NCBI GenBank assembly: GCA_018644665.1
Contig: JABGQA010000138.1
Span: 1 to 64,000, forward strand
Reading direction: 5' to 3'
DNA: 64,000 nucleotides
Source of the DNA: Candidatus Poribacteria bacterium
GTDB lineage: Bacteria > Poribacteria > WGA-4E > GCA-2687025
The position numbers were made by a program, and so were the translations under genes. The notes beneath the pieces were generated by a model. The model saw nothing but the letters and a program-made list of their open reading frames with translations. It was not told the origin of the DNA and searched no databases. Of the stretch, positions 10,901 through 44,915 are shown one piece after another; position 1 is the first letter of the stretch, and each line of letters starts with the position of its first letter.

Positions 10901-12010
10901 GAACTGCCCGTTGGCGGCGCTGACATCTAACAGGGCAATCTGACGCTCCGCGTCGGGCAGCGATCCGGCGAACGCATCCACCGAGGCAGAACCGCGCGAT
11001 CCGGGACGAGCGACGGTGACGCGCAACAGACGCGGCGCCGTGACGTCCATCGCGAGGCGGAACCAGTCCACGTCGCCCACGGCATCCGTGGACCCGAAGA
11101 CACGTAGCGACTCCGTCAGGTCGGACGCGGCGACGCGTGTCGCCACCGTGTCTGCGTCGTTCGGCTCGGCGTCCCAGAACGCCGTCTCCTCTGGCGCCTC
11201 TGCGGTTAACGTCAGCGTGTAGAGGCTGCCGATCTGCCCCGCATCGTCCATCTGCACGTGGACGTAGTACGGGACGGCATCGGCCCCGAACGTCGCGCTA
11301 AGCCGGTGGTCGGTCGCGGCAGTGACGCTGGCGTCGAGGACGAGGTCCCCGAAGGCAGGCAGATCGCGGTACACGCGCACTGACGTGCTGCCGCGGCCGC
11401 CGTCGGGCCGGCGGAATGTCGCCGTGACCTGCCCCGGCGCGAGCGCAGGTGCGAGGGCGTACCAGTCCGCGTCATCCGCAGCGAGCGACGTGGCGCGCGT
11501 GGGAAGGCCTGAGACGAGCGGCGTGGGCACGATATCGAAGTTGTTGGGCTCGACCTCGACTCGGAACTCGCCGGTCACCGTGAACGCGGCCCCCGCTGGG
11601 GTGAGGTCCTCCGTGAGGTCGATCCCGACCGCCGCGACGGAGAACGTGTGCTCGCCAGGCGTCAGCGCGTAGAACGTCGCCGTCGGTCGTGTGGTGAAGA
11701 CGGCGGCGGCGCCGTCGAGAGAGTACCGGTAGCCGGCGAGCGGCGCGGTGGGGTCGTCGGAGACGCCCGTCCACCAGAAGACGACGTCCTCGAGGTTCGT
11801 CGGCCCATCTGGCCCGCTGAGGAGGACGGTCTCGGGCGTGGCGACGGCTTCGCCGGCGCCCAGGAGCAGCGTCGCCAGTGTCACCACGGCGGCAACCGCC
11901 AGGCGGGACTGATGCGGACGTGCAGGGGCCGCGTCGCCAATGCGGCGCACGGCGCCAGACCCAGCGCGACGCACGGTGCGAGACCCGGTGCGGGGCCCGG
12001 TGGGGGACAA
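1967..12010 (-). CDS. Giant (~3,350 aa) secreted modular repeat protein with FlgD-like C-terminal sorting domain
   Basis: An exported surface protein of about 3,350 residues. A signal peptide (LAVAAVVTLATLLLGAGEAVA) is followed by three interleaved module types. Nine PPC-like beta units begin with EPN and carry DxDW (for example EVEPNGVDP, GDVDWFRL). Five acidic units match DDGxxxDxxxxDGxYxG (for example MFDDGAHDDADPDDGVYSG), probably calcium-binding. Seven fibronectin-III-like units resemble ADAPDDDGGVILVQWT. The last ~85 residues (VTVAPNPFRPSHDGVLTM ... WDGRSDSG ... LYLYLVRAAN ... QILVIR) are a FlgD-Ig/type IX-like sorting tail. The start is uncertain: the open frame reaches a TTG at 12064 inside pyrG. 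TTG at 12010 is preferred because AAGGG lies 8 nt upstream; GTG at 11974 or 11950 is also possible. The stop overlaps the PorV-like gene. Confidence 0.85.
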   Translation of the reverse strand: MSPTGPRTGSRTVRRAGSGAVRRIGDAAPARPHQSRLAVAAVVTLATLLLGAGEAVATPETVLLSGPDGPTNLEDVVFWWTGVSDDPTAPLAGYRYSLDGAAAVFTTRPTATFYALTPGEHTFSVAAVGIDLTEDLTPAGAAFTVTGEFRVEVEPNNFDIVPTPLVSGLPTRATSLAADDADWYALAPALAPGQVTATFRRPDGGRGSTSVRVYRDLPAFGDLVLDASVTAATDHRLSATFGADAVPYYVHVQMDDAGQIGSLYTLTLTAEAPEETAFWDAEPNDADTVATRVAASDLTESLRVFGSTDAVGDVDWFRLAMDVTAPRLLRVTVARPGSRGSASVDAFAGSLPDAERQIALLDVSAANGQFATFETAVGLGDILIRVGHDDDVRDVPYALVLDMTDIPAGETYEVEPNGVDPRVNARSPNALTPNVTVVGQSWAPDADVDWFRVDIADPGVLGLTVERPGGRGSTTARLYNSNFLLVGEAVATAVNGQATSLSAIASAGSYYVELAPQGESPQAPYALTPTLESPGIFSAERTATVALTLGDVLNVRLLAPPGLTASFSIVGARLDVPMFDDGAHDDGDANDGHYVGSYVVRSTDELFGLDVTARVVDIEGAASQRVVGAPVTLDGRAPAPVTAVAAADAPDDDGGVILVQWTASDAADLAQYRVYVETTPITSVDGLTPALRASNTSARLSVESSGVALFVAVTAVDRAGSESTLAPGSVAGPVIAEDNRLPTPITAVSAEDIPDDYGGALRVRWTPAFLPDFAEYRVYAAPDAIEDVGALVPVARIAAPFRTDVDILDLPTDAEAFVAVTVLDLTGNESGLAIGSVAGPVVAAAQAATDASPLEVAGPIGILRGGSATFHWLRFPAGRTEPVADALVTLDGIEQRVVSRSSTTFHDLTPGRHTVRIVESASGVATTRAVHVDPLAPSETEPNDIAALAEPLHPNEAVAGSVANDSDWSRIESPAPGLVSVTVTRRSGSVELRVYRQAAAADTLAWTAALDDLTPRATFSVGTLGEPLLVEMRGDGGYELFTTWAPTPAFAFEREPNDTRGRATAAGVGVDTPRLRGSLTSDDDVDWFALPASTTGNVVVRAYTPDGGAMRLRVYREAEQVAALSFGTDEPIADLPLRMDSAAYFLAVDGDATGAEYQIAVAAGGPSVARELEPNGDLADATALPMDTSIVGDTWADGDRDVYGFDVPTSGVLVASLSRPAASTVTTARILAASGAELGLGITSGPTGVAYAQASVGPGAFYVAVDADGAEDAEYALHATLFGELAHDAAGTLKAGDEVAISLVWRPGADVVAELVDASGAGPRAVVPLVDVDGSGAYSATWTARDDDDGDDLVLRARVVAEGLTRLVTFPGGITVDTTPPDILSASHDARTALGVGATLHVTATAESGALGAFALLRPDGAAARADVPMEETEDGRYEGALVVGPTDDIVGGTVRVGFEDEVGNRATRDISRMLTLDTLPPNVASVTHDGSGVLVEGDRVGVTLRGDVGARGTFAILTESETPFRDDIPVFDDGAHADGDADDGVYRGEYTVRPGDIAEAAVVRGRLVDDAGNAATGVASATVSIDASTPTIIRASHDADAALALGDTLRIAVTGSPGATGSFSIARADGTFYRADLRLTETDTEGEYAASFDVGLGSDLIDGTVTVVLRKANGKSATRSITAPVTFDTTPPPAVRGVMARDVPTDEGGFIRVSWEATSAADFTRYEVYRSQTPLATVDGRAPEALDLLDRSVESVVLPAPTGLGQYFAVVAIDEAGNASGLSLDVGGSVSARVEAIDDLPPLPIRNVLALDRPNDGGGVLSVVWEPTPALDFAEYRVYVSDLPFLPNTPPRAHPDIPGVPAARLRAPSVTVADVPTPADGVGFFVAVSAVDASGNESAVGAAGVSGPATSQADGAPAPGGAFAVFGGPTSIARDSSLAFRWSRFGSTAGAIDNYRYSIDGGPGRFTGVNEALLTGLTAGEHVFSVAPADGGLPAATRRFHVDPISIPEREPNDAPDVAMSLPPGVAVDGLLTDGGDIDRYRVQLSAPAQVSLHLARVGVGVAQMTLTAPSVALEFSGLATISADGLAAPDAHTAMVLEAGEYVVRVTGDPGMYRAVVAAHPTPADIAWDLEPNDDPRRATRVFGDAAEISGASNREGDVDWYRVPIPADGFPIIELDLAQAAFHDTSRFEFLHDAPGAGQFGIGAVTLSPDEPTVRLRAGVRQGDLLIKAMPALGSVYGVRVGFAPLPPDVLLELEPNGDVDIAQSFSPGARVDAALWGADDVDWYRVDMTPTAGGFVALTVDAAERDAAVEAEAFTAGLQSLGALLPSASAPNAYAVTVPSLTRSFFVRVRGATTVYGLAGLAVSRAAHDATLPLGAGAELTVTVQGDEEWDVRAEIPGHGIEFPLTSTIPGTYVGAYTVEPGADVRDAAVEIVIDSLRGVHVRAPLTPTVTLDTVPPAISDARHSAGRPLRADGELRISARTEAGSRVSYEVEGGDFRVLGDMFDDGAHDDADPDDGVYSGVYRVQPGDAATGATVSVSATDAVGNARTLAISRPIDLDTTPPRIEQVAHSGVSVLREGDRLTVTTHGEAGARGAFSVEGVRENLPLVDDGTRGDDAAGDGVYVGSTLILPGDNTPGAIVTVRLTDLAGNEASAQAALPVSMDTAAPVIDGVTHSATGPLREGDRLVVRVTGEAGSTATFDIGAERTDIAMFDDGVGDDDSANDGVYTGAYVVRRDDDLPEAIVTARVADRNGNTGFRAATARVTLDAMPPPSVRGLSVEDAPDDQGNRVRLAWTAADGVVDFLRYHIYRETAPIRSTRGLTPVSTEIVNMGQEAVELDVPANNVDYHFAITAVDVARNESSLSEDGSSAFGPARATDDLPPASVLGVAAADAPEDDGGFLVVSWTSQSDETDFGGYAVFLDEGELESVPAREADLLESDRTVTQVLVPTAEDMLPVYVVVAARDINGSYSAVIDGSRAGPVTSTDDVAPQPVSGVAAVDAPGDEGGRLSVAWDVPADPTVVEFEVLLSSVPIRSSADLVGLEPAASAPRPADVEQDVAGTNAPTSGADGDAWHVAVVAVDGGGNRSEIAAASVDGPVRSVANVLAASRGALIQAGFDPQTSVRIPDSVARPGVRVDIYRTLDTALQRAVDEANLNLDVANIDDATEADLAVSVRHFDGSPTKFAQPLTVTVSFPPPDSSEVTRDLRLFRLNTDAIPARWDLVSGEQTVDVGQGVVSAESTTLGVFRVARLLLPTQLDRVTVAPNPFRPSHDGVLTMRNLTDDADVEIFTLDARRVTRLMNASSGVATWDGRSDSGVLVATGLYLYLVRAANDRRVGQILVIR

Positions 12011-12014
12011 GAGC

Positions 12015-14117
<2,103 letters not shown>

Positions 14118-23140: not shown

Positions 23141-23935
23141 GTGGGAACATGCCCGACGGCCCAGAGGACCCCATCTCCATCTTCCCCTGCAAGGGGAAGA
23201 CGTTCACCGTATCCACGTGCGGTTGTCCTGCTCGACGGCCTGTACGACGACCGCTACCCCGAGTTCTACGCGGAGTCGTGCGCGCGGGACGATCCCTTCG
23301 TCGTGTGCGCGGACGGGGCGTTGCGCTCCGTAGCGGACCTGATGCCGGACATCGCGCCGCAGTTGGTCGTCGGAGACATGGATTCTCTGGGCGACGTCGA
23401 CCGTGACGGGTGGGAACAGCGCGGAACGCGGTTCGACGACACGTGGGACGGGCAGACCGCCAAGGATTACACGGACGGACAGCTCGCGCTCTACGCGGCA
23501 CTGAATGAGGGCCCGCAGCGTATCGACATCCACGGCGCCCTGCCTAGGCGCGACGCGTACGACCACGACCACTTCCTGGGCAACCTGTCGCTGATCTCCG
23601 AGGCGCGCGAACGGCTCGGCGACGCCCCCGACGACGCGGTCCGCATCGCGGAGCCGCTGGAGACGATCGCGCTGTGCCGCCATCGGCTGACGCTGAGACG
23701 CGTCGGGGTTGGGTTGAATCGCGTGTCGCTCGTGGCGTGCGGCGGCTCGTCGCGCGTGGCGCGTAGCGAGGGGTTGCGGTGGGATCTGGCGGGCCTCGAG
23801 GTGTGCGCGGCCCCGGCCAACGCCCTACGGAACGAGTTCACCGTCGACGCCACGACCGTGACTATAGAGATGGCGCGCGGCTCGGCGCCGGTCTACGTAT
23901 TCCACAACCGATACGACCAGGACGCCCACGCGTGA
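23141..23935 (+). CDS. Thiamine pyrophosphokinase-like protein
   Basis: Thiamine diphosphokinase-family protein, which transfers pyrophosphate from ATP to thiamine. Recognisable motifs, in order, are VVCADGALR, QLVVGDMDSLGD (the GDxDS motif), KDYTDGQLAL (KDxTDxxxA) and RRDAYDHDHFLGN (R-x-DH...N). The 264-aa length exceeds the usual 210-240. The first ~27 residues (proline/arginine/serine-rich) look non-native: the conserved protein seems to begin near RAVVLLDG. GTG at 23141, with GGAGGA 12 nt upstream, is the only usable start in frame, so an upstream frameshift or sequencing error is possible. The stop overlaps the next gene (GTGA). Confidence 0.82.
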   Translation: MGTCPTAQRTPSPSSPARGRRSPYPRAVVLLDGLYDDRYPEFYAESCARDDPFVVCADGALRSVADLMPDIAPQLVVGDMDSLGDVDRDGWEQRGTRFDDTWDGQTAKDYTDGQLALYAALNEGPQRIDIHGALPRRDAYDHDHFLGNLSLISEARERLGDAPDDAVRIAEPLETIALCRHRLTLRRVGVGLNRVSLVACGGSSRVARSEGLRWDLAGLEVCAAPANALRNEFTVDATTVTIEMARGSAPVYVFHNRYDQDAHA

Positions 23936-25851
23936 AAGCGAGTCCTGCCGCGTCGTTCCGCGTGACGCCGCGCGCCGTGGTGATCGGCGTGCTGTACGTC
24001 GTGTTCCTCGCCGCGCTCACGCCATACAACGACTACTACATCCGCAACACGTTCCTGGCGGGGAACCACTTCCCGATAGGGTCGTTCTTCCTGTTCTCCG
24101 TGCTGGTCATCGGCGTGAATCCGGTCATGCGGCGGTTCGGCCTGCGGAACATGCTCACGCCGACGGAACTCCTGGTCGTGTGGGTGATGATGCTCGTGGG
24201 GTCGGGCATCCCGTCGTCGGGGTTCCTGCGCTACCACCTGTTCATGCTCACCGCGCCGGCGTACTTCGCGAACTCCTCGAACGACTGGGCGAACCTGTTC
24301 CACCAGGTGCTGCCCGACTGGCTCGTCGTCAAGGACGAGAAGGCCGCGCAGGCGTTCTACGAAGGGCTCGACCCGCTGGGACACATCCCCTGGGGGTTGT
24401 GGGTGCGGCCCGCGTGCATCTGGTCGGCGTACGTGCTGCTCACGTACTTCGTCATGCTGTGCATCGCGGTGATCCTGCGGAAGCAGTGGGTGGAACACGA
24501 GCGGTTCGCGTTCCCGCTCGTGAAGCTGCCGCAGGAGATGGTCGAGGAGCCGACGGCCGGCAAAGCGTTCAACGCGTTCTTCCGCAACCCCATGACCTGG
24601 GCCGGGTTCGCGATCCCCGTGCTGCTGCACACGCTGAACGGGGTGCACGCGCACATCCCGGCCGTGCCGCATATTCCGCTGTATCTCAACCCGAACGCGC
24701 TGTTCGCGGAGCGTCCGTGGACGGGTCTCCGCTGGATGATGCTGTCGATCTATCCGACGGTCATCGGGTTCTCGTATCTGCTGCCGTTGGACGTGTCGCT
24801 GAGCTTCTGGCTGTTCTACCTGCTCTTCAAGGTGCAGAGCGTCGCGTCGGTCGCCATCGGGTCGGGCGTGAACGGCTTCACGATGGCGAACCGGCAGGAG
24901 ATGGGCGGGTACATCGCGCTGACGCTGTACATGCTATGGCTGGCGCGTCGGCACTTGGCGAACATCGCGCGGGCCGCGTTCACGTCGGCGAAGACGGACG
25001 ACGGGCGCGAGGCGCTGTCGTATCGCGTGGCGCTGCTCGGCCTGATCGGCGGGACGCTCGGTCTGAGCCTGATGTGCAAGCTGGCGGGGATGTCGTTCTG
25101 GCTGGGGCTGACGATCCACCTACTGTTCTACATGATGTGCGTCGTGCTGACGTGGATGGTCACCGATGGCGGGTTCCTGTTCCTGCTGGCGATCTTCCGG
25201 CCGTCGGATTTCGTGGTGATTCCGCTCGGGACATCGCGGCTCGCGCCGTCGGACCTGACGATCATGGCGTACGAGAAGACGCTCATGTTCGACCTGCGCG
25301 AGGTCATGATGCCGCACATGATGAACAGTCTCAAAGCCGCGGATGTCGGCCGCGTGCGGCATCGACGTCTGCTGCTGCCCATCGGCTTGGCGATCGTCGT
25401 CGCATTGGCGGTGTCGTATGTGTCGGGGCTTTGGGTTTGGTATCGGAAGGGCGGGCTGAACCTGGCCTACTGGCACGCGCCCGAGCCGTTCGACCGGCTG
25501 ACGCGTCAGCTCGTGAACCCCACCGGCACGAACTGGATGGAGATGCTCTACGTCGGGATCGGCGTGGCGATCATGTCGGGGTTGATCTTCATGCGGTATC
25601 AGTTCACGTGGTGGCGGCTGCATCCGCTCGGTTACGCCATGACGACGAGCTGGGCGCCGTACACGGTGTGGTTCTCGTTCTTCTGGGGGTGGCTGCTGAA
25701 GTACGCCATCATGCGAGGTCTGGGCTTCAAGGGGTATCGGACGTGGCGGCCGTTCTTCCTGGGGATGGTCGTCGGAGACGCGTTGATGGCGGGCGTTTGG
25801 GTGATCGTCGGGCTGTTTACGAAAGTGCCCTACCAGATCATGCCGGGGTAG
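23932..25851 (+). CDS. DUF6785/DUF6784-type polytopic membrane protein
   Basis: A 639-aa inner-membrane protein with about a dozen hydrophobic segments. The family hallmark is the cytoplasmic loop EHERFAFPLVKLPQEM near residue 190, and the C-terminal part (TSWAPYTVWFSFFWGWLLK, GLGFKGYR) matches the DUF6784 half. The family is common in Poribacteria, Planctomycetes and Armatimonadetes. It has no established function, although the fold looks transporter-like. The frame is open further upstream, but GTG at 23932 overlaps the pyrophosphokinase stop by 4 bp (GTGA) and directly precedes the first membrane segment, so it is taken as the start. The coupling suggests linked expression; whether it moves thiamine or a related compound is only a guess. 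Confidence 0.88.
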   Translation: MKASPAASFRVTPRAVVIGVLYVVFLAALTPYNDYYIRNTFLAGNHFPIGSFFLFSVLVIGVNPVMRRFGLRNMLTPTELLVVWVMMLVGSGIPSSGFLRYHLFMLTAPAYFANSSNDWANLFHQVLPDWLVVKDEKAAQAFYEGLDPLGHIPWGLWVRPACIWSAYVLLTYFVMLCIAVILRKQWVEHERFAFPLVKLPQEMVEEPTAGKAFNAFFRNPMTWAGFAIPVLLHTLNGVHAHIPAVPHIPLYLNPNALFAERPWTGLRWMMLSIYPTVIGFSYLLPLDVSLSFWLFYLLFKVQSVASVAIGSGVNGFTMANRQEMGGYIALTLYMLWLARRHLANIARAAFTSAKTDDGREALSYRVALLGLIGGTLGLSLMCKLAGMSFWLGLTIHLLFYMMCVVLTWMVTDGGFLFLLAIFRPSDFVVIPLGTSRLAPSDLTIMAYEKTLMFDLREVMMPHMMNSLKAADVGRVRHRRLLLPIGLAIVVALAVSYVSGLWVWYRKGGLNLAYWHAPEPFDRLTRQLVNPTGTNWMEMLYVGIGVAIMSGLIFMRYQFTWWRLHPLGYAMTTSWAPYTVWFSFFWGWLLKYAIMRGLGFKGYRTWRPFFLGMVVGDALMAGVWVIVGLFTKVPYQIMPG

Positions 25852-25894
25852 GCGCGCACGCTGCCAGGATGGCCGCGCAGGTATCCCTCGGAAC

Positions 25895-25974
25895 GTAGGT
25901 AGTAGGCAGCACGCCCCGTAGACCCTGTGGCCAGGCGGCCTGACGCGCTCCCTACACCCATGCCTACTCCCTAC
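25895..25974. repeat. Hairpin repeat element, copy 1
   Basis: Left arm GTAGGTAGTAGGCA (25895-25908) is the reverse complement, with one mismatch, of right arm TGCCTACTCCCTAC (25961-25974). The last 40 bp (25935-25974) are identical to 29094-29133. It lies between the DUF6785 gene and the NACHT gene. It could be a non-autonomous mobile (MITE-like) or REP-like element, and would fold into a long stem in RNA. Confidence 0.75.
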
Positions 25975-26072
25975 ACGGCGCACGCCGACCCTTGCTATCT
26001 CTTATATTTGAGGTCACAGTGTCAGCGTGCGTAGAGTACGCGGAAGCCCACGCGGCGGAGAGGGACACAGTC

Positions 26073-29000
26073 GTGCCGAAGCCCGAGAGCAAGGTCGGAG
26101 CGCGCCTACAAGCTGTGAGCGGTTGGCTGAGCGAGAGCGCCAAGGTCGTCGGCGAGGGCGCCAAGCTCTCGCTGGAGACGGGCTTCCTCAAGGAGATCGT
26201 CACCGAGTGCGGCGAGGGGCTCGGCATGGCGAGCGCGCTGTGCAAGCTCGGAGCCTTCGCGATCGACAAGGCGACCCCCGACATGCCCGCCGACGTCATC
26301 ATAGCGCACCGGGTGACGGACACGTTCTGGAAGACCCTGGACGAGCAGTGCGCCAACTGGGAACAGCCCGTCGAGGCCGAGGCCTGGACGGACTACGTCC
26401 GCGAACACCTGGACGAACGCACGTCCCGAGCGCTCGCCGGCGAGTTCTCATGGATGTCCGTCATCACGCCAGACGGGCAGCTGACTCCCGCCAGGAACTG
26501 GGGCATCGTGCGGGACTTCGTCGGCCTTGCGGAAACGTGGCTGCACGCCACGGGGATGGAGCCCGCAGACATCACGCCCGTCAAGCAAGCGGTCGGCGAA
26601 GCGATCGTCAAGACGCTCAACGAGACGATCGAGAAGGCTGACGTGCTCGACGGATTCCGCGCCCTCATCGACGACATCGGCACGCAGGCGGTTAAGGCGC
26701 TCGTGGAACTGCAGACCGGGCTGGCCGATACGCTCCTGTTCGGCGAGACGAAGCAGTCGGACCTGTACGTGCCGTCGCGGGCGAAGATCGCCGACCTGAC
26801 CTTCGGTGGCGCCTATCCTCTGAAGTGGGACGACGTGAAGCCCGCGGGCGAGAACGCCGAAGACGTCCTCCTGGCCAAACTTCGCGAGGACGACAAGCAG
26901 CTCGTGGTCGTCGAGGGGGAGATGGGCATCGGCAAGTCGTGCCTGATGCGCCGCATCACGGCCCAACTGTCCGAGGAGTACACCACCGGCGGGCGCGAAC
27001 CGATCCTCGTCCGGTGGAAGGATCTGTACGAGCGGCGCGACGAGCTTCAGGCCGCCGTGAAGGACCACCTGCGGCGCGAATACGACGTCTCCGTGCCGGA
27101 TCTGACGCTGGGTGACAACACGCTGTTGCTGGTCGACGGCTTCGACGAGATGACAAGCCACGACCCGACGTTCATCGCCGGCTGCTTCCGACGGCTAGCG
27201 GAGCTTTACAGGGATGGCTGCACGGTCGTGGTGGCCATGCGGACGCCCGTCGTGACGGCCGGCATGAAGGACGAATGGACGCAACTCGGCGCCTTGGTAT
27301 GCCACGTCCTTCCGTTCGCCAAGGCCCAGGTAGACGCGTGGGCGGAGAGGTGGGCGGATTCGAAGGAAACCGAAGACGTGACGGGCGATGCCCTGCGTGG
27401 CGCAGCGGGCGACGCCGGAACCGACGGCGTAACCCAGGTACCCCTGCTGCTGTACATGGTCGCCAAGTACGTCCTCCCGCGGACGACCGGGGATGTCCCG
27501 CTGAACCGAACGGCGGTGTTCAGGGTATTCGTCGACGAAACGATCCGAGGACAGGTCGAGAACAGCGCGGCGCAGCGGGTACAGACGACCGCGGACTACG
27601 AACCGGTGGCATACCGACTGCTGTTGCAGGAACTGGCCGCCATCGCGTCGTGGCCGAAATCCGGCGGCGTGTGCAGGCCGCGCGACATCGAGGATGTGAT
27701 CCCGGAAAGCGCCCGGAAGCGGTTCTCCTTCGCGCGGGGCATCACGCCGTTCGTCCTGCACTTCTTCTCGCCAACGCCCGCCCACGGCGAGTTCCATTTC
27801 TACCCGGAAGGCTTCCGCGAGTACCTGCTCGCCGAATGGAGCGTCCGCCAGCAACTCGAATGGCGACAGTTGCGTGGCGCCGGACACGAAGAGCTTTGCC
27901 GGTCGGACGATGAGGCCCGGCGGTGGCTCGGGGAGTTGGCGTTGCGGGCTCAGGAGATGACGTTCCTGGATGGGATCTACGAGGAATTGGGCGCGCTCGC
28001 CCGGGAGCAGTCCGACGATCTGGCAAGACGCTTGAGGGCCTTCGGATGTCAGGCGAAGGATGCCGCCGAGGCGGCCGGCACCGTGGAGGCCCTTTACGAG
28101 GCCGCACGCGCGTACGCGGATTACCCGAACCCGCCGCAGCAGTGGGGCGTGGCAGCCGTGAGCGTGGGCTCGCCTGAGGACCGCAGCCTTCCACCTGCCT
28201 ACAACGACCTGACCAAGGTCTACAACGCGCTGACGCAGTGCTGGGTGGCAACTCTCGGTCTGTGCCGTGGCTTGGGTGCAGACGAGCCGATTCTCCAGAG
28301 GGACACGATGTCTCTGGCACAATACCTACATATCGGCACCGCGGCTGCTGGATTTGAGATGCGCGTCGAAATCGCGCGAGACGGACGCTTCGCCGTGGCC
28401 CGGTCAAACGCCCTACGGCTGTCGGAGGCGAACCTCGCCGGCATTTATCTGCACGGCGTCGCACTGGGCGCCGTGCGCCTGCGCGGCGCGAATCTGAGTA
28501 GGGGTTTGCTGGTGTTCGCGGATCTGGAGGGCGCAGACCTGTCGCACGCAGACCTTCGGCAAGCAGATTGCACGGGGGCGGGTCTGCGCGGTGCGAACCT
28601 CCAGGGAGGGCGGCTGCATAAGGCGCAACTACCCTACAGCGCCCTGAGCCACGCGAGATTGGAGGACGCGGACATGAGCGAGGCCGACCTCGGCGGGGCG
28701 GACCTGAGTCACGCCGATGTGAGCAATGCCAATATATGCCGAGCGGACCTGACGTATGCAGATCTCGCAGACCTGTCCACATACCAGGAGATCGCCAACA
28801 TCCAGGGCGCCAACATCCACGACGTGCAGAACGCGCCCGAAGGCTTCACGGAATGGGCCCTGGAGCACGGCGCGGTTCAGAAGGATTTGGAGGCGTGGGA
28901 GGCATTTAAGGAGAACGGCTACCAGGAGTCTTTCGCGGAGGCAGACGCATCCGCGAAGGACTCGTCGCCCGGCGGCGAATCTGGACCCGACACCGGCTAG
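26073..29000 (+). CDS. NACHT-type STAND NTPase with C-terminal pentapeptide-repeat domain
   Basis: A 975-aa NLR-like protein. Residues 1-~250 are a mostly helical region of unknown type. The NTPase follows, with Walker A GEMGIGKS (282-289) and Walker B LLLVDGFDE (351-359), the extended acidic form seen in NACHT ATPases. A helical region then leads to 24 uninterrupted pentapeptides (779-898, e.g. SEANL, EGADL, GGADL), enough for six coils of a right-handed quadrilateral beta-helix, and a charged tail. No membrane segment. Bacterial NACHT proteins are known antiphage defences; the role here is inferred. GTG at 26073 is chosen because GGAGAGGG lies 8 nt upstream; the frame opens at TTG 25992. 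An AT-rich TATATT at 26003-26008 may be a -10. It stands alone, flanked by hairpin elements. Confidence 0.88.
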   Translation: MPKPESKVGARLQAVSGWLSESAKVVGEGAKLSLETGFLKEIVTECGEGLGMASALCKLGAFAIDKATPDMPADVIIAHRVTDTFWKTLDEQCANWEQPVEAEAWTDYVREHLDERTSRALAGEFSWMSVITPDGQLTPARNWGIVRDFVGLAETWLHATGMEPADITPVKQAVGEAIVKTLNETIEKADVLDGFRALIDDIGTQAVKALVELQTGLADTLLFGETKQSDLYVPSRAKIADLTFGGAYPLKWDDVKPAGENAEDVLLAKLREDDKQLVVVEGEMGIGKSCLMRRITAQLSEEYTTGGREPILVRWKDLYERRDELQAAVKDHLRREYDVSVPDLTLGDNTLLLVDGFDEMTSHDPTFIAGCFRRLAELYRDGCTVVVAMRTPVVTAGMKDEWTQLGALVCHVLPFAKAQVDAWAERWADSKETEDVTGDALRGAAGDAGTDGVTQVPLLLYMVAKYVLPRTTGDVPLNRTAVFRVFVDETIRGQVENSAAQRVQTTADYEPVAYRLLLQELAAIASWPKSGGVCRPRDIEDVIPESARKRFSFARGITPFVLHFFSPTPAHGEFHFYPEGFREYLLAEWSVRQQLEWRQLRGAGHEELCRSDDEARRWLGELALRAQEMTFLDGIYEELGALAREQSDDLARRLRAFGCQAKDAAEAAGTVEALYEAARAYADYPNPPQQWGVAAVSVGSPEDRSLPPAYNDLTKVYNALTQCWVATLGLCRGLGADEPILQRDTMSLAQYLHIGTAAAGFEMRVEIARDGRFAVARSNALRLSEANLAGIYLHGVALGAVRLRGANLSRGLLVFADLEGADLSHADLRQADCTGAGLRGANLQGGRLHKAQLPYSALSHARLEDADMSEADLGGADLSHADVSNANICRADLTYADLADLSTYQEIANIQGANIHDVQNAPEGFTEWALEHGAVQKDLEAWEAFKENGYQESFAEADASAKDSSPGGESGPDTG

Positions 29001-29049
29001 GGCGCGCCGGTCCTCACAGCGTGCAACCCGCCGTGCCCGTTAGCGTTCC

Positions 29050-29133
29050 GTAGGTAGGCAGTAGGTAGCGCGCCCCTCAAACCCAGTAGCCAAGCGGCCT
29101 GACGCGCTCCCTACACCCATGCCTACTCCCTAC
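29050..29133. repeat. Hairpin repeat element, copy 2
   Basis: Same element as 25895-25974, in the same orientation, with the last 40 bp identical. Its left arm carries an extra GTAGG unit (GTAGGTAGGCAGTAGGTAG at 29050-29068). The right arm ends over the stop codon of the minus-strand Toprim-DUF927 gene (TAG at 29130-29132), so the element sits exactly between the two convergent genes and may also act as a transcription terminator. Confidence 0.75.
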
Positions 29134-31793
29134 TCCGTCGCCACGCCGATGGCGTCCGGCTTCAAGCACACCACGCGCGTCATGCGCCCTTCGATCGAGC
29201 GGCGCGGCTTCAGGTTGCGACCGTCCGTGACGATCCACGCGCGATCCCGCCAGTCTTGCAGCACGCGCGTGGGGTTGTAGCCTGCCTTCTCGACCTCGAT
29301 GTCCCAGACGTTGTGCAGGATGTAGACGGAGCCGTCCGCGGCGATCTTCCCCCACACCTCGCGCTCGGTGGGGATGTCGCGCGTCGCCGCGCCGATCTCC
29401 GCCTCGCGCGCGAACCGACGCCGGTTCGACACCAACCACGACCGCGCCCAGTCCAACGCCCGCGGGCCATACGGCGCGTTCGCCGGCTGACGCTCCCACA
29501 GCTCTCGACCCATCGTCAGCGACGCCTCCAGCAGGTCATCGCGCGACTCCGACGCGCCGAACACCCACTCCGACGCCAAAGCGTCCGCCAGGCAGACCGT
29601 CGCCAGCGCTGTGACCGTCGCGGGACGCGTGTCGGGCATGTGACGCCGCAGGCGAGCCACCGCGACCGCGAGCAACCCGCGCAACTCCTCCGGGTCGAGG
29701 TCCACCAGGGCGTGGACGAAGATGCGACCGCCGTGGCCATGCCGCTCCCGCGTCAGTTCGTGGATGCGCCGCGCCATCGCGTCGTCGGGGATGGGTCGGC
29801 CGCTCAGTTCCAGCACCCGCGCCGCCTGCCCGCCGAAATCGTCCAGCGTGGTGAGCGGCTCCTCACCCGTCGTGAACGACACGACGCGCCATCGTGGCGT
29901 GTGCTGCAGTCCGCCTTCCTTCGCGCCACGCGTCTTCCCGGCCTCCTGCGCGATGAGATACGCCAGCGTCCGACGCATCTTGGGGTCCGCGTTCATCTGC
30001 AGTTCGTCCAGCACGATGGGCAGGTCGCAGAACAGCGCCGCCCTCCGCTCGACGCCGACGAGCGTCGTGAACAGGCTCCCGATGAGCCGCGACGGATCAC
30101 CGAAGATCGACGACACGAGCTTCGCCACGGCCGTCTTCCCGCCGCCACTATCGCCGTAGATGTGCACCCCGAAGGAACGCGCGCCGACGGGATACAGCAA
30201 CGGCGCCGCGAAGCCCGCCGCCAACAGGAAGCGCGCCAGGTCCGACGCCTCCCGCGCCTCCGCGGCCAGGTCGATCCACGCGCGCTCCGTCCCACGACGG
30301 CAGATGCCGTCCAGGATCGCCTTCTCCTCGCTGTGACTCCGCGGATACTGCCGGACGGGATGACGCGGCGGCCGGTCACTCGGCGCGATGTTCTCCGCGG
30401 CCAGCACGTACTGACGGTCGCCGCCAGGCCGATGCCATCCGTTGCGGTCGGTGAAACGCGCGGTGGGCAGATGCGGCGCCATCGTCGCCTCGAGCGCGCC
30501 GAGGTACTCCACCAGGCGGCTCGACGACGACGACGACACGGGTAGCCCGACGTCCGCGTATTCCACGAGCCGACGGGCGCTCATGGCCGCCCCGCGCTCC
30601 ACGAGTTCCGACTCCATCACCGACGCGCCGTCCTGCGCACGGACGTACGACAGTTCCACGTAGTGGCTGCGCGTCTCGACATCGAAGCCGTGGCCCGACA
30701 GCCATATCGGCGCGTGCGACACGCGGACCGGCGTCTTCCGACGGATGCCGACCTTCGGCCGCTCCTCGAAATCCTCACGGCAGACGCCCGCCGCGCGGAT
30801 GCGGTACCCACGCTCATACGTCTCGTCGTCCACGACGCGGCGCTTGTCGAGCAGCAGGTGGTTCGCCATCTTGAGCGACAGCACGCGGCGCGCCTCGTCG
30901 GTGTGATGCCGCAACCGCAGATACTCCGACGGCGTGACGCCCGCGCGAACCACGCCGAGGAACTGCTCCCACGACGTGCCCGCCGCCAGCGCCGAGTCCG
31001 CGTCCGCCTTCACCGCGTTGGGGTCCCATTCGAGCGGGAACGTCGCGATGCGCGCGTCGATGTCGTGGTGCGCCAGATCGTGGGCGACGCGCCACGCCCA
31101 GTACTCGGTGTCGTAGCGACTCAGCGTGTCGCCCTTGTACCCGCTCTTGTCGGGATCGGCCTTGTCCTCGCGGTCGAACAGGACGACGAGTTCGCGAACA
31201 TCGCGCGCCCGCAACCATGCCACCAGCCGCGGGAAGTTCTTCCCCGCGAACGACGACACGCCCGGCACGGAGATCGCCCGGAAGCCGACCTGCCGGAGCG
31301 CCGCGGCGCCGAACTCGCCCTCGACCATCACCACGTCCCGCGACATGGGCATCGACGCGAAGCCGGGAGCGTATATCCGCACGGGATGGCCCTTCGGCCC
31401 GTTCTTGTGCGGCCGAACGGCGATGCAGTCGTCGCGTTCGTCGAGGTAAGGGATGAGGATGTTCTGCTTGAGGTAGATGGGGTTCGGCGCGACGGCCTCG
31501 TCACCTCGGACGAACAGCCCGCTGCCGAGTAGCTGCGCCGCGGACCATGACCCGCCGTCTCGGATGCCGAGGAGCGCCTGTCGGACCGGGTCGCCGCCGG
31601 AGCGGAACTTCAGCGCGTCGATGCTCTCGTCGGTGAGGCCGCGTCGGGAGCGCAGCGAACGCCGGTCGGAATCGTCGAGACCGATCGCGTCGAGGAGCGT
31701 GTTGAGAAGCGCCGGCGGAGTGTCTGGCAGGGCCGCGTTCTCGGCCGTCGGCGTCGGCGTCGTGGGTTCGGCGGTGGCGGTCGAGGCGTCCAT
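29130..31793 (-). CDS. Toprim-DUF927 primase/helicase-like protein
   Basis: An 887-aa protein joining a Toprim domain to a DUF927 helicase-type ATPase, an arrangement of phage, plasmid and integrated-element replication proteins. Toprim residues are seen in DVVMVEGEF (Glu ~158) and LVVLFDRE (DxD-like region, ~207). The ATPase has Walker A GDSGGGKT (547-554) and Walker B LPIVLDE (591-597), with the DUF927 signature RWRVVSFTTGEE after it. No N-terminal zinc finger and no obvious AEP/DnaG catalytic core, so priming activity is unproven. A hexaserine run (TCG repeat) lies near residue 420. The start is ATG 31793 with GGAGGG 6 nt upstream; the longer frame to 31886 is rejected. It converges on the NACHT gene. 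No integrase, capsid or plasmid partition gene is near. Confidence 0.85.
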   Translation of the reverse strand: MDASTATAEPTTPTPTAENAALPDTPPALLNTLLDAIGLDDSDRRSLRSRRGLTDESIDALKFRSGGDPVRQALLGIRDGGSWSAAQLLGSGLFVRGDEAVAPNPIYLKQNILIPYLDERDDCIAVRPHKNGPKGHPVRIYAPGFASMPMSRDVVMVEGEFGAAALRQVGFRAISVPGVSSFAGKNFPRLVAWLRARDVRELVVLFDREDKADPDKSGYKGDTLSRYDTEYWAWRVAHDLAHHDIDARIATFPLEWDPNAVKADADSALAAGTSWEQFLGVVRAGVTPSEYLRLRHHTDEARRVLSLKMANHLLLDKRRVVDDETYERGYRIRAAGVCREDFEERPKVGIRRKTPVRVSHAPIWLSGHGFDVETRSHYVELSYVRAQDGASVMESELVERGAAMSARRLVEYADVGLPVSSSSSSRLVEYLGALEATMAPHLPTARFTDRNGWHRPGGDRQYVLAAENIAPSDRPPRHPVRQYPRSHSEEKAILDGICRRGTERAWIDLAAEAREASDLARFLLAAGFAAPLLYPVGARSFGVHIYGDSGGGKTAVAKLVSSIFGDPSRLIGSLFTTLVGVERRAALFCDLPIVLDELQMNADPKMRRTLAYLIAQEAGKTRGAKEGGLQHTPRWRVVSFTTGEEPLTTLDDFGGQAARVLELSGRPIPDDAMARRIHELTRERHGHGGRIFVHALVDLDPEELRGLLAVAVARLRRHMPDTRPATVTALATVCLADALASEWVFGASESRDDLLEASLTMGRELWERQPANAPYGPRALDWARSWLVSNRRRFAREAEIGAATRDIPTEREVWGKIAADGSVYILHNVWDIEVEKAGYNPTRVLQDWRDRAWIVTDGRNLKPRRSIEGRMTRVVCLKPDAIGVATE

Positions 31794-31918
31794 CTTCTGC
31801 CCTCCGTCGTGGGTTGCCGGCCGGCGACGAAGCCGCCGCCACCATGACCGTATCCGCGCGGGGGGTGGTCGGATCAAACCGAACATGCGGGACTGCCAGA
31901 TGCGCGGGCCGCGAGGCG

Positions 31919-32011
31919 GCAGCCGGTAGGCGGTAGGTGGTGGTGTAGGGAGCGGGTAAACCGTGTGGACATGCGGGTCCGCGTCCCGAACTGCCTACTC
32001 CCTACTGCCGG
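31919..32011. repeat. Hairpin repeat element, copy 3 (degenerate)
   Basis: The left side has GGTAGGCGGTAGGTGG and GTAGGGAG; the right arm CTGCCTACTCCCTACTGCC (31991-32009) is the reverse-complement type. The interior shares the GTGTGGAC/GCGTCC-type core with the other copies only loosely. Arms match less well than in copies 1 and 2. Confidence 0.55.
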
Positions 32012-32070
32012 AGGGCTCCGGTAGAGAGAACGCGCAGTGGACCGCGAGAGGTCCTCACAGGCATAGATGC

Positions 32071-37879: not shown

Positions 37880-40800
37880 CTACTTGAGGATGACCATGCG
37901 ACGCATCGCGGAGCGGTCGCCCGCGCGTAGCGCATAGACATACGCCCCGCTACCGACGCGCTCGCCCAGGTCGTTACGACCATCCCAGTATCCGGCGTCC
38001 GCGTGTTCGGCGTAGTAGCCCGCCTCGCGATAGCCCAGTTCCAGCGTCCGCACGACCGACCCCCGCATGTCGTAGATGTAGACCGTCACGTCCGATGCCG
38101 TCTCCAGCTCGAACGGAATCCACGTCTCCGGGTTGAACGGGTTGGGGTAGTTCGCCAGCAGTCGCGTCGACGACGGAGGAGTCCACGTGGCGAACACGCG
38201 GAAACGCTGGATGCCGTCCGGCACCGTCGCACGGCGCGCCTGGTTCATGTCGTAGGTCGTGTCGCCGACCTCGATCCACAGGCGGTACCCCTGCTCCAAC
38301 GCCACCGGGTCCCAACGCAGCATCGACTCGCCCACCGCGCGCGCAGTCAGCGTCCACTCGCCACCGTCGGTGGAGAGGGGCTGCACGCTACGCGTCAGAC
38401 GGCTCGCGATGTGGTCCACGTCCGCGTAGAACACCGACGCGCTGCGATCCGCGGGTGGCGGAGGCTGCGCGATGTCATACCGGTCGTAGCCGGTCGTCGC
38501 GAGTGGGCTGACCCCGATGTCTACCGAGCGCATCGCGTCGGCGGATTCGAGGCTGAGACGCGTGCTCCAGCTCAGGTCGCTGAGCGCCGGCGCCGCGAGG
38601 GCCGTGTTGCCGAGGACCGTGTTGCGGTGTTGCGGCTGCGCGAATACGACGCTGTCCGCGCCGGTCGCCAGCACCCAGTACCCACGTCCCGGAGCCAACG
38701 CCGTAGCAACGGCGTAGTTCTGCGTCGACGGGTCGTACTCGAAGACCGAGTTCGGCCCGGTGCTGAACGCGTCGTTGAGTTGGTTGGAGCTGGGATCGGC
38801 CTGAATGGCCCCCACGAAATTCCAGCCGGCGTCGATCGGCACGGTCACCTGACGCGCCACGCGCGTGTCGATGTTGACGTTGATGTCCACGTCTGCCGCG
38901 GAGGCGCGGTGGACGAAGTACGCCGTGTCGACATGCTGCACGAGGTCGGTGCTCAGCGGACGCGCGTAGCTCTGTGTCGCGGCGTCCCACTTCCAGATGG
39001 TGTTGGCGCCCAGCGCGTTACGCAGGGAGCCGATCGTGGCGATCGCCCCATCTGGGGGTCCGGGCAGCGACATCGCGGTCCAGCCCTCACCGAGGCTGAG
39101 TGACAGCAGATGGTCCGCGTCGCTCCGTTCGAGACGTAGCGCCAGCGTGTGCGAGCCCGGCGGCAGGCTGATGCCTCCCGTGCCGGTTCCTCGATCCCGC
39201 ATGTCCAGCGTGTCGCCGTTTGGCAGGTCGATGAACGCGTTGTCGAAGTATCCGGTTAGGGTCCCGTTGAGGAAGTCGCTGCTCCACGAGAGCGCGCCCG
39301 TCTGCGCGTCCGGCACGAGGACGTCCAACTGCCACGTCAGAACCGGGTCTGGGTTGGGCGGGTCGATCGAACTGGTAGCGACGATGTCGCGGAGCAGTCC
39401 GGTGGTCGGCGCGCCCGCGCGTCGGAGGACCATCGTCGTCACGAGGCGCTGTGGCTCATCCGGCGGAAGCGGGACGTCTTCCTGAGCGTTGAAGCCGGTC
39501 GTGGCGTTCACGGCTGCGCCGAAGAACACCGTCCGACTGAACCCGTCGGTGGTGGTGATGGTCAGTGACGACTGCCAGCCGTCCTGGATCGCGTCGGCGA
39601 TCGCTACGTACTGCCCGGTCGGGGCTCCGCCCGCCACGCCTGTCGGGCCTTGAGCGTCGAGATACAGCGTGTAGATGCCGGGCGCGAATCCCTGCGGCAC
39701 GACGAACGTCAGCAGGTTCGGGCTGCCGCCGGCAGACACCGGAGCCGCGAGGGCCACGGCGCCCGAGGGGTCAACCAACTGGATGTCCGCGACGCTGGCG
39801 GCCTCATCGGCGCTGAGCATCGTGATCGTGACGGTAGCGGCGGCGCCCGAGATCCCCGAGATGAGCGTCGGGTCGACCGAGGAGATGCTGACCGCGGAGA
39901 GAGTGTCCACAACGACGATGTCTACCGTCGCCGGCGTCCCCGCGGGAACGTCGTCGCCCCCATCGCGGTCCAGGTCGATGCCACTCACTGTGGCGCCGAT
40001 GGTGTAAACGCCAGGCGTGGCGTCGGCGGGAATCGTCACGATCGCTTCGACATCACCAGCCGCAGCCTGACCCAACGCGCCCGCTTCCAGCGCAGTCGGC
40101 ATCGTGAGACCGGCGATGGCCGGCGTGACCGTGAAGTCCACCGTCCTCGACGCCCCGACGTTGCGGAGCGCGACGACGATGTTGCCGCCTCGGATGATGC
40201 TGTCGCCGTAGGCGTCGAACACGCCGATCCCGTCATCAACCTGCGCCGTGAGCGTCGTCGTCCCACCGGTGGGTGGCGACCCGCTGTCGGCGAAACTCAG
40301 CGTCATGTTGACCGCGCTCAACGCGGCGTCGATGTCCATAGTGTCCGCGGCCTGCGCGGATATCTGGATGCTGCTCCCCTGCACGTACGCCTCGAAGACG
40401 TTGGGCGCGTCCTCCGATGTAACCGAGGCCGCGAACGGAGGAGTGCCGGGACCGGGGATGCTGATCGAACCGACGCTATAGCTCTCCCCGCGGTAGATCG
40501 TGGGCAGAGCGGAGACGTCCAGCGTCAGCGACGCGATCAGCACGGCGTTGACGACGACCGGGGCGTCCGCGCTGACATCGACGTTCGTGACCCCGTCGTC
40601 CGCGATCGACAGGCCCAGGCGAGGCGTGAAGCCTTCCTGCGAGATGTTGAGCTGGTAGTCGCCGTTGGCGTCGAAGCCGGCGAAGGCCGCCTGCCCGGCG
40701 ACCGTCAGTTTGTCGGCCGTGTCGCCCGCCACCGATCCCGAAGCCGCGATGTAGGTCCCGGCGCCATCGTCGAACACCAGGAGCACCACGCGGGCGTTTT

Positions 40801-43800
40801 CGGAGGGGACGGCCTCCTCGGCCGTAGGCCCTTCCGTGACGTCGACGGTCAAAGAGGTGAACTGCAGATCAACGGCAGTGACAGGCGTCGCGCTCTGCTG
40901 GGCGTCGAGAACGCCGTCCGCGTCGATGGTCAGGTCCACCGTCTGCGTGATGTACCCGACCTTCGTGATGTCGACGCTCTGGCTGGCGAGGACCTTCGTC
41001 GCCGTATAGACGCCACGACCCGCGGCCACGAACGGAGCAGGCGCCGTCGCGCCATCCGGCGTGACCGTGATCGACGCGGTGTTCTTGACGAGGGCACCCG
41101 TCGCCGTGGTGACAGTTGCTCCCGGCGCCGCGTCGACTGTCGCCGACACGGTCAGGTTCTCGTAGCCCGCGCCGGTCACGACGGCGTCGTACACTCCTCC
41201 AGTGGCGCCCGTGAACACGAAGTTCTCCGAAGACCCCACGGCCGGGATCGTCAGAGGATCTATGTTCGCTCCGGCGGGTAGCGTGACCGTGACATCGTCG
41301 CTGATGTCGATGCCTGACACGGTGACCGTGAGTTGCGTCTCAGTAAGGACCAACGCGACGGCCGACTGCGTGGTGGCGGCGAGAGTGACCGGCGTCTGTT
41401 GCGCGGATATCCAGCCGTCCAGCGACGCCGTGACCGTGTAGTCGCCCGCGAGGAGTGTCGGGAACACCGCATGCCCCGGCCCGACCGTGCCGGAGAGGCC
41501 GCCCACCGTCGTCGGCGTCTGGTTCGTGATCGCCGTGAACGTCCCGGACGGGCCACTAACGGTCACGTTCACGCCGTCGAACGCGCCGGCGGCGTTGCTC
41601 ACATCCACGCTGATCGCGGGAGTGAGAACGTCGATCGTGCCGGTCGACGCGGTGTCGCTGATCTGCTGTCCGGCGATAGACGAAGTGACGAACCCGTCTT
41701 TGCTCATCGTGAGCGTGTGTACTTGCCCGGACGTGCCGTCGATGCCGCGCAACTCAACCAGCCCGCCGGCGTCTGTCACTGCGGGGCTTGGGAGGGTACG
41801 CGGGGGCGTCACGACGCCGCCGCCATCGAGCGCTGCGGCAACAGCGACTCCACTGATGTCGATCCCGCCGCTGCTGACGTGGATCGTGATGGATGTGTAG
41901 GCGAGCGCCGCGGCGTCCGCGGCCACGGCTGACGTGCCGACCGTCACCGGCGCTGCGCCGACGCTCGTCACGTGCCCCGCGTTCACGACGGTCACGATGT
42001 AGTCGCCTGCGAGTATGCCGCCACCGACGGACGGGTCGCCGAAGTCAGCCACGCCGCTTGTCTCGGCTACGGCATCGAAGTCCAGATCACCCAACGCGGT
42101 GAGCAACTGCACGCTCTGCGCGCTCAGGTCCACGACGCCGTTGTCCACCCCGGTGATCGTCACGGAGGCTCCGCCGAAGGCGACTTGGTCGCCCGCTGGG
42201 TCCTCGGTCGTGACAACGACTTGGAGGCGCACATTGGACAGTACGATGGGGGCGGCCACGACCGTCGCCACCGACTCGCTCACCGTGATGCCTGCGAGTG
42301 ACGCGCCTTGGTAGCGTGTCGTGCCGGCTTCGGCCGGGCCTGTGACCGTCACCGTCTGCAGCACGTCGGTGGGCACTTGTGTGAGGACCGCGATGCCGTT
42401 GGCGTCGGTTGTCTGAGGCGGCAGACCGGCGATGACGACCGTCGCGCCGGGGATGCCAGACGGAGATGTCGTCGCGTCCTCGTCTTCGACCGTCACACTG
42501 ACCGAGGTGTGGTCCAGCGACACGCCCAAGGTCTCCCCGCCCGTCGTCATTGTTATCGGGAGAGCCGTCGTGTCCGCGGTGTGCTTGCGGATATACCCGT
42601 GCGATCCCGCCTCCACATGGACGACGTAGTCGACCGCCTGCAGCAGACCCGCGAAGATGGCGACGCCCGACGCGTCCGTGCTCTTCGATGGGCTCCCGTC
42701 CTGCACGACGGCGGGGGACACCCCATCCGGCAGGAACACGCTGACCGTGGCGCCTTCGACCAGGCCAGAGTCGACCGCATCTGACACGGTGACCGTGAGA
42801 GCCGTTGCCGGCAAAGCGTCGTCATCGTTGACGATCGTTACGACCGCGGCTCCGTCCCCGATCGTCGGAGGCGAGGTCGCCCCGCCGCCCGGAGCCGACA
42901 GGGTGAGCGTCAGGGTCTCGTTGATTTCCTTTATACCGTCGTCGATAAGTGGGACATCGACCGTCGCCGTTGTCTCTCCCGGCGCGATGGTGATCGTCGC
43001 CGCGACTGCGGTGTAGTCGACGCCCTCTGTCGCCGTGGCGCCCGCGCTGGTCGCGGTGACCGTGATAGCGGCCGTGCTGGCGTTGGTCAGCGTGACAAGC
43101 GCCTGAGCGACGCCGCTGGCCTCGGCTTCGGAAGCGGAGCCGTCGACGATGCTGATCGTCGGGGTGTCGTCGTTGTCGACGGTGATCGTCGCGCTCGCCA
43201 CAGACAGTGTGGGCGCGACGCCGCTAGCGCCTCCGCCCGGCGCGGAGAGGCTGATTGTGATCGTCTCGTTGGGTTCGTCGAGCGTGTCGTCGTTGACCGT
43301 GACGCCGACCGTCGCGGAGGTGAGACCAGCCGGTATCGTGACGGCTTGGGCGACTACCGGGACGTAGTCACCTTCGAGCGCAACTGCCACGTCGTCGGCG
43401 GTGTCCGCCTGCACGGTGACGGGCTGCGTGCTCGCGTTGTCCATCGAGACGGTGACTGTCGCCTGGGTCGTCGGGCCGCCATCGCCCTCCCCGACCGTGA
43501 CGCCGGTGATCGTGAGAGCAGGCACGTCGTCGTTCGTTACCGTCGCCGTCGCGGTGGTCGCCGCGGGATCGATGCTCGCGCCGCCCGCGACTGCCGTCAA
43601 CGTGAGCGTGAGCGTCTCGTCCGGCTCGTCCAGGGCGTCGGCGCCTAGCGTGACCGCTACCGTCGCCGTCGTCGCATCGGCCTCGGTGAATGCCAGCGTC
43701 TGGGCGCCGACGACCGCCGTGTAGTCCCCGTCGGCGGCGATCGCCGTCCCATCTGCGACGACGTAGTCGACCGTGTAGCTATAGGTGGCTGGGCTAGCAG

Positions 43801-43984: not shown

Positions 43985-44915
43985 ATAGCGTCTCTCTCCG
44001 ATTGTGTGCTGCGTGGGCGCCAGTGTTGGCACGCCCAGTCCGTTCGTCGCGACAATCCATCTGCGGGCGCTCGGGTCCTCGCCAAGTCCGCGTGCGGGGA
44101 CGCCGGGCCACATCAGGAGTCACGTTCACCCCTGGGCCGGCCACCGACTCGGTGTCGCCACGGGGGCGGCCCGCGCGCGCGAGCCGTCGGCGATCCCAGA
44201 CGGCAGAACCCACGGCGCGACGGGCGCGCTGCGTAGTATGCAGAGGGAGTCGCCGAGGGTTTTTCCGCAGAAGCGCGGCGCCGGGGCGCCATCGCCCACG
44301 GGACCGCCCCTGGCGCGCGCGACCGCGCATCAGGCTCCACAGCTAGTTTTAGCCTGCGGCCCAACCGACGCTGACGGGAGAACTACTGTCGAATACGTGA
44401 GTTTTGTAGGGGAAACCCTGGCGCCTCGGTGGGCGCCATGGGGTCTTCGCCGGTGCTGCAATACCGCAGCGCCGGCGCCTTTCATGAGGGGATCGTGGCC
44501 TTCTCCGCTGTCAAAGGCGTTGCGGCAGGTCGTCTGCCGTGGCGCCCCGCGCGACGATCGACCCGACGGAGCCAGCGGTGGGTCGACGCCGCGGCAGCGC
44601 ACAGCATTGATCTAGGGCGGGCGGGACAGCTGGGGATCGGCGCGCCGGGTCTGCGCGTACCACGTCCCGCGGCCATGGGGTGGCCGCGGGCCCGACTCGC
44701 CGCGCTGGGCATAGCGCCCGGGTGAGGGCCCATTGTCTACGCAAACGCGAGATGGCCGCCGCGCGCTCCCGGCATCCGGCGACGCACTTCTGGGCGATGC
44801 GACGTCTACTGACATGGACGCAGGGCGCGTAGGGTTCGAAGCGGCCTTGGGCGGCGAGCAGCATCGCCGCGGGACGGCGAAAGTCAACTGATGCGCGACC
44901 CGTACTTAGCGTTCC
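43985..44915. other. 931-bp non-coding region
   Basis: The largest gene-free stretch of the window, between the end of the sensor kinase and the start of the Calx-beta gene, both minus strand. Frames on both strands are short and arginine/alanine-rich, typical of non-coding GC-rich DNA. No tRNA, clear riboswitch, insertion sequence or strong hairpin was recognised. It may be a long leader for the Calx-beta gene or a decayed gene. Confidence 0.4.

Follow-up and report, generated by a model that had tools for sequence, protein, structure and literature searches.

A candidate NLR-like defence protein with a pentapeptide tail, encoded in a repeat-bounded slot of a Poribacteria genome

What precedents are there for a bacterial NTPase that ends in a pentapeptide solenoid? 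An anti-phage role is established for bacterial NACHT (bNACHT) proteins, which are laid out as effector, NACHT and sensor (PMC12169576), and prophages carry defence hotspots (PMC9122126). The gene studied here lies in a window of 64,000 nucleotides, the whole stretch of Candidatus Poribacteria DNA that was analysed. It resembles bNACHT25 and bNACHT32 (clade 6) and bNACHT02 and bNACHT12 (clade 14; PMC12169576) in being a single gene with a central NACHT domain and intact Walker motifs, and in the tripartite sequence of N-terminal extension, NACHT and C-terminal extension, which is found in three homologous proteins here. However, its N-terminus differs from that of clade 6, a PD-(D/E)XK nuclease, and its C-terminus is a pentapeptide solenoid rather than an NCH1 or SNaCT domain. 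Pentapeptides likewise follow directly upon NACHT in cyanobacterial proteins of metacaspase-NACHT-pentapeptide-WD40 architecture (PMC3501461), so that the combination as such is not new; our protein differs from these in having neither caspase nor WD40, another N-terminal domain and another lineage, and its N-terminal domain and family appear to be new. A further one-gene system is DS-8, a validated anti-phage metallophosphatase-NACHT with an unusual effector (DefensePredictor; PMC13092281), whose model (NF053861) matches the present NACHT domain weakly (21 bits, E 5e-5, against a cut-off of 790 bits), whereas a metallophosphatase is absent here. The whole protein had no match in PADLOC, and the NCBIfam DS8 and EruA models remained far below cut-off. 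NACHT similarity, including the LYVP linker, extends to an Mrr-type nuclease-NACHT of Acetobacteraceae (L063:395-3511, plus strand); its N-terminus is instead a restriction-endonuclease domain and its pentapeptide-like C-terminus stays below the pentapeptide cut-off, and it may be a parallel architecture with a known effector.

The gene is an intact reading frame of 975 amino acids with a GTG start and no internal stop (Table 1). We prefer the GTG at 26073 to one upstream at 26019, because the two proviral relatives described below both begin at the equivalent residue. From N- to C-terminus, the protein is built of a helical N-terminal domain, the NACHT NTPase, a helical connector, the pentapeptides and a short cap. 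The original prediction of an NLR-like NACHT NTPase with intact nucleotide-binding motifs is confirmed by this layout, by a PF05729 score of 37.3 bits (E 3e-9) where the Pfam cut-off is 26.7, and by the conservation of both motifs: G282, M284, G285, G287, K288, S289 and D355-M360 are identical in the proviral relatives. With its NACHT domain, Walker A and extended Walker B (D-G-h-D-E), the protein has the hallmarks of the NACHT clade of STAND NTPases, and a PDB search with the family profile retrieved mammalian NLRP5 chains (E 2e-5) and, weakly, NLRP14 and NLRP1. The full-length AlphaFold model is poor (pLDDT 40.5), with mostly helices predicted at low confidence for the connector; the beta-helix is its sole well-predicted part (pLDDT about 75-84). 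Base composition gives no foreign signal, the GC content of the gene being 65.8% and that of the window 67.3%.

Table 1. Features of the NACHT-pentapeptide gene and its surroundings (positions within the window)
Feature	Residues	Position	Strand	Basis or remark
DUF6785/DUF6784 membrane protein, other flank		23779..25851	+	Pfam; 89% identical in sister species
Left border repeat R1		25888..25974	+	Similarity extends to 25988
NACHT-pentapeptide gene		26073..29000	+	Relatives L105:5167-7962 and L107:9983-12853
N-terminal domain, candidate effector	1-236	26073..26780	+	25% identity in both relatives
NACHT NTPase	277-428	26901..27356	+	PF05729 above Pfam cut-off
Walker A, GEMGIGKS	282-289	26916..26939	+	Direct reading; conserved in relatives
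Extended Walker B, LLLVDGFDE	351-359	27123..27149	+	Direct reading; DGFDEM invariant in relatives
Helical connector	430-780	27360..28412	+	Conserved in relatives; motif EGFR(E/Q)YLLAEW
23 uninterrupted pentapeptides, putative sensor solenoid	786-900	28428..28772	+	PF00805; register count
C-terminal cap	901-955	28773..28937	+	Missing in proviral relatives
Right border repeat R2		29047..29133	+	Similarity extends to 29164, within 3' end of DUF927 gene
DUF927 + Cch-type HTH protein (mobile-element helicase type)		29130..31886	-	PF06048 E 2.5e-41; PF18662 E 6e-11
Third border-repeat copy, divergent, inverted		31926..32015	-	Upstream of DUF927 gene; 96% identical to copy on contig C169

What might the N-terminal domain contribute? 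Residues 1-236 matched nothing in Pfam, PADLOC or NCBIfam, including the NACHT effector domains represented in Pfam (nuclease, TIR, caspase, NNH and others); even at E <= 10, Pfam returned nothing for the window protein and chance-level matches alone for its relatives. A PDB search with the domain gave nothing significant (best E 0.059). AlphaFold predicts an all-helical fold at low confidence (pLDDT 41), and a PDB fold search with the full-length model, which found pentapeptide solenoids and, weakly, ORC/AAA+ folds, is uninformative on this region because the models are poor. As had been supposed, the N-terminus thus matches no recognised effector and falls into no Pfam or PDB family, yet it is kept at 25% identity in relatives of another lineage; judged by its sequence, it is a conserved domain matching no known family. 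The conserved residues (L-A-x-E-F-S-W-x-S, R141, W143 and A-E-x-W) suggest no obvious active site, and neither a catalytic motif nor a known effector fold was found in the domain. Residues 46-68 make up a glycine-rich hydrophobic helix; a membrane-acting or self-assembling helical effector is the guess that we favour, tentatively.

The pentapeptide part, in turn, is readily assigned (PF00805, 76.6 bits, E 1e-21) and matches solved pentapeptide solenoids in the PDB. A gapless run of 24 repeats had been proposed; the long unbroken run is there, but direct counting of the register gives 23 repeats, then a break and two more. Could this solenoid be a DNA mimic of the Qnr/MfpA type that binds gyrase, as was also suggested, making the protein a gated gyrase inhibitor? 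The right-handed pentapeptide beta-helix is common to both, and the Qnr and MfpA models do match weakly, although far under their cut-offs: QnrA scores 35 bits against 450, and MfpA 24 bits against 360. HetL-type and synthetic solenoids match better than Qnr, so that the Qnr matches are explained by the fold alone. Moreover, Qnr and MfpA are stand-alone dimeric DNA mimics, whereas here the solenoid is the tail of an NTPase; it is mildly acidic, with a net charge of -6 over the 115 residues of the 23 repeats, and the charge is not conserved, the relatives having -7 and -6 overall and the last 15 repeats of L107 amounting to +1. We consider a gyrase mimic very improbable.

The cap that closes the solenoid was found, in a search of five genomes, only at two further loci of the same genome, C16 (47% identity) and C20 (65%). 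Its presence at loci of the own genome and its absence from the proviral relatives suggest a local exchange of the tail end. At C16 it belongs to a membrane pentapeptide protein (L020:6352-8397, minus strand) and includes the motif GFxEWAxEHGAV, which points to the cap as a module swapped among pentapeptide proteins of the host.

How widely is the family distributed? The genome belongs to the phylum Poribacteria, NACHT loci of whose members reach 85% DNA identity to a contig labelled uncultured Poribacteria. A match to residues 1-756 occurs in one of 85 genomes of the phylum Poribacteria, namely the protein's own, and a two-row family profile found only pentapeptide-region matches in the others. 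Single-sequence searches of these 85 genomes, of phages, of genome contigs and of viral contigs yielded no relative; in plasmids they yielded distant Pseudanabaena NACHTs only, the pentapeptide matches there being ordinary pentapeptide proteins without NACHT. Relatives surfaced only with the NACHT alignment as query, the alignment of the resulting pair then giving a second, and no other contig came up in three further scans, so the family counts three members, two of them near-identical, in a sample that is light for cellular genomes outside the phylum. Both relatives are proviral: one on contig IMGVR_UViG_2671180531_000009 (E 6e-133 over residues 11-916), the other on IMGVR_UViG_2600255093_000006. 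Identity over the whole protein is 35%, falling to 25% in the N-terminal domain and rising to 43% around NACHT. The domain TIGR02996, which takes its name from Gemmata obscuriglobus, is present in a proviral neighbour gene, and the provirus hosts are thus probably Gemmata-like planctomycetes.

In both proviruses, the NACHT gene stands between the head/protease and portal genes and is convergent to the structural genes; in the second, the head protease/capsid region (phrog_133, E 4e-5) is followed by the cargo and then by the portal (phrog_21, E 8e-88) and terminase (phrog_38, E 1e-70) genes. Besides the NACHT gene, the cargo blocks have genes for a GNAT protein and a threonine dehydratase in common and otherwise differ, one carrying a kinase-LRR gene and HigBA, the other MBL, N6-methylase, transposase and P-loop protein genes. 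The kinase-LRR protein (L107:4262-6544, plus strand), a protein kinase fused to leucine-rich repeats and adjoining the HigBA pair, matches the PADLOC PD-T4-6 models (E 1e-30), which by itself is weak evidence, as such kinases are common. A survey of the neighbours of homologues, proposed as a check of the original prediction, thus finds proviral cargo with HigBA, N6-methylase and kinase-LRR genes, and not vertically inherited housekeeping genes devoid of defence context. The position within the head-gene region, next to the portal gene, could nevertheless be read as that of a gene serving the prophage itself, in lysis, superinfection exclusion or the control of particle release, with the Poribacteria copy as a domesticated descendant; a CARD-NLR-like system, LypABC, is known to control the release of a gene transfer agent (PMC13236601). 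However, a gene that runs convergent to the structural genes and sits among variable cargo is more easily understood as a moron or defence load than as a morphogenesis gene, and among the neighbours that were read, the Poribacteria copy adjoins no phage structural gene. We regard a service to the prophage as quite improbable.

The Poribacteria copy occupies a slot whose content varies. In the closest genome, which belongs to the same genus at about 90% DNA identity, both flanks of the slot are kept, with 90-91% DNA identity over ClpB, thiamine pyrophosphokinase and DUF6785 and 89% over DUF927 and beyond (the DUF927 neighbour itself being 95% identical), and the NACHT gene is absent. Instead, in a reading from two contigs that do not join, DUF6785 is followed by a gene for a PIN toxin (PF01850, E 1e-6) and its small partner; next come a border-repeat copy and, at the contig end, the first part of a gene for a type II-like DNA methyltransferase (PF01555, E 6e-10; PADLOC, E 5e-26). 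On the DUF927 side, an unmatched reading frame with a stop comes after the repeat. A NotI-type endonuclease was suspected for this broken frame, and searches of Pfam, PADLOC and the PDB gave no confirmation. With border-repeat copies between cargo genes, the sister locus (G007, L099:1-1813 and L100:6400-7321) has the look of a small defence-type hotspot; variable content with defence genes between conserved flanks, which marks a defence hotspot, is found in both the sister and the proviral slots.

The repeats R1 and R2 that bound the slot are direct and 86% identical over 87 bp, and at E <= 1e-3 R1 recurs elsewhere in the genome only as one weak copy, on contig C169. The copies flanking both cargoes repeat the final 20-35 bp of the DUF927 gene, an arrangement that resembles the duplication left by a site-specific insertion; no recombinase was identified for the repeat-bounded slot. 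Of the proposal of a single gene isolated between mobile-looking repeats, the repeats hold. The window offers no defence island around the gene, the neighbours scanned there including no other PADLOC gene.

The absence of a detected defence gene directly adjoining ours also bears on a regulatory reading, in which a STAND protein would sense an endogenous ligand or assembly state through its pentapeptides and act as a signalling scaffold rather than in defence. Work on bacterial STAND proteins began with their role as NTP-dependent regulators (PMC7159879), and the same genome is rich in pentapeptide proteins and has several STAND-like ones. A regulator of this kind is hard to reconcile with the patchy presence of the gene, its proviral relatives and the sharing of slots with toxin, methylase and toxin-antitoxin genes; furthermore, Pfam assigns NACHT, and no DNA-binding domain was found in the protein. 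We deem it unlikely.

Further insight comes from the proviral pair, which differs at 4 of the first 600 residues (N-terminal domain and NACHT) and at 11 of the next 150, but at 80 of 175 aligned residues of the pentapeptide end, with a length difference of 25 residues in addition. The flanking DNA is 96-97% identical, and dN/dS is about 0.1 over the first 700 codons. Such a pattern, here from one pair only, is as expected if a recognition end were exchanged on a conserved signalling chassis. The divergent block is about 2 kb long and also takes in the 3' end of the portal gene, which is convergent, so that it may stem from a single recombination event and not from selection on a sensor; recombination fits it better than a diversity-generating retroelement. 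The portal part itself is about 97% identical in DNA between the proviruses. Both portal genes (L106:13034-16027 and L107:13218-15962, both minus strand) have long C-terminal extensions, unrelated or strongly diverged, which give the impression of a polymorphic cargo domain added to the portal.

The layout of the protein and its intact NTPase, together with the mobile context and the diverging tail, make an NLR-like defence protein the favoured reading. A defence function, predicted from the genomic context, is likely; we consider it moderately probable that the gene is, more specifically, mobile and provides on its own an NLR-like defence against phages or other mobile elements, in which the tail senses, the NACHT domain oligomerises and the N-terminus kills. 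In the mechanism we infer, the pentapeptide solenoid with its cap would be the recognition surface for a signal of infection. Upon detection, the NACHT motor would exchange nucleotide and oligomerise, gathering copies of the helical N-terminal domain, which in their clustered form would kill or arrest the cell, either by damaging the membrane or by serving as scaffold to a partner. A bolder scenario, in which prophages have spread a new class of NLR-like receptors across phyla, with a fast-diversifying pentapeptide sensor in place of the LRR and an undescribed helical death effector, seems to us possible and rather doubtful. If true, the defence reading would extend the effectors of the bacterial counterparts of plant and animal NLRs by a new domain, and would assign a sensing role to the pentapeptide repeats, whose fold is widespread and has few known functions. 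The proviral alleles, near-identical in head and motor and diverged in the tail, make sensor specificity testable by a tail swap. Genes of this kind are seen to occupy mobile slots in phyla that have been little studied and in which surveys based on islands have few data to draw on.

The surroundings of the gene hold some minor observations. The Cch-type HTH of the DUF927 neighbour owes its name to the cassette-chromosome helicase. Paralogues of this neighbour lie on short contigs with BrxL-like genes (L102, on G000:C10, and L103, on G000:C14), the C10 locus bearing a BrxL-type BREX gene, which suggests that the DUF927 family travels with BREX-type defence loci. Finally, two open reading frames of the window are very long, with 3365 codons (1967-12064) and 2077 codons (37880-44113), both on the minus strand.
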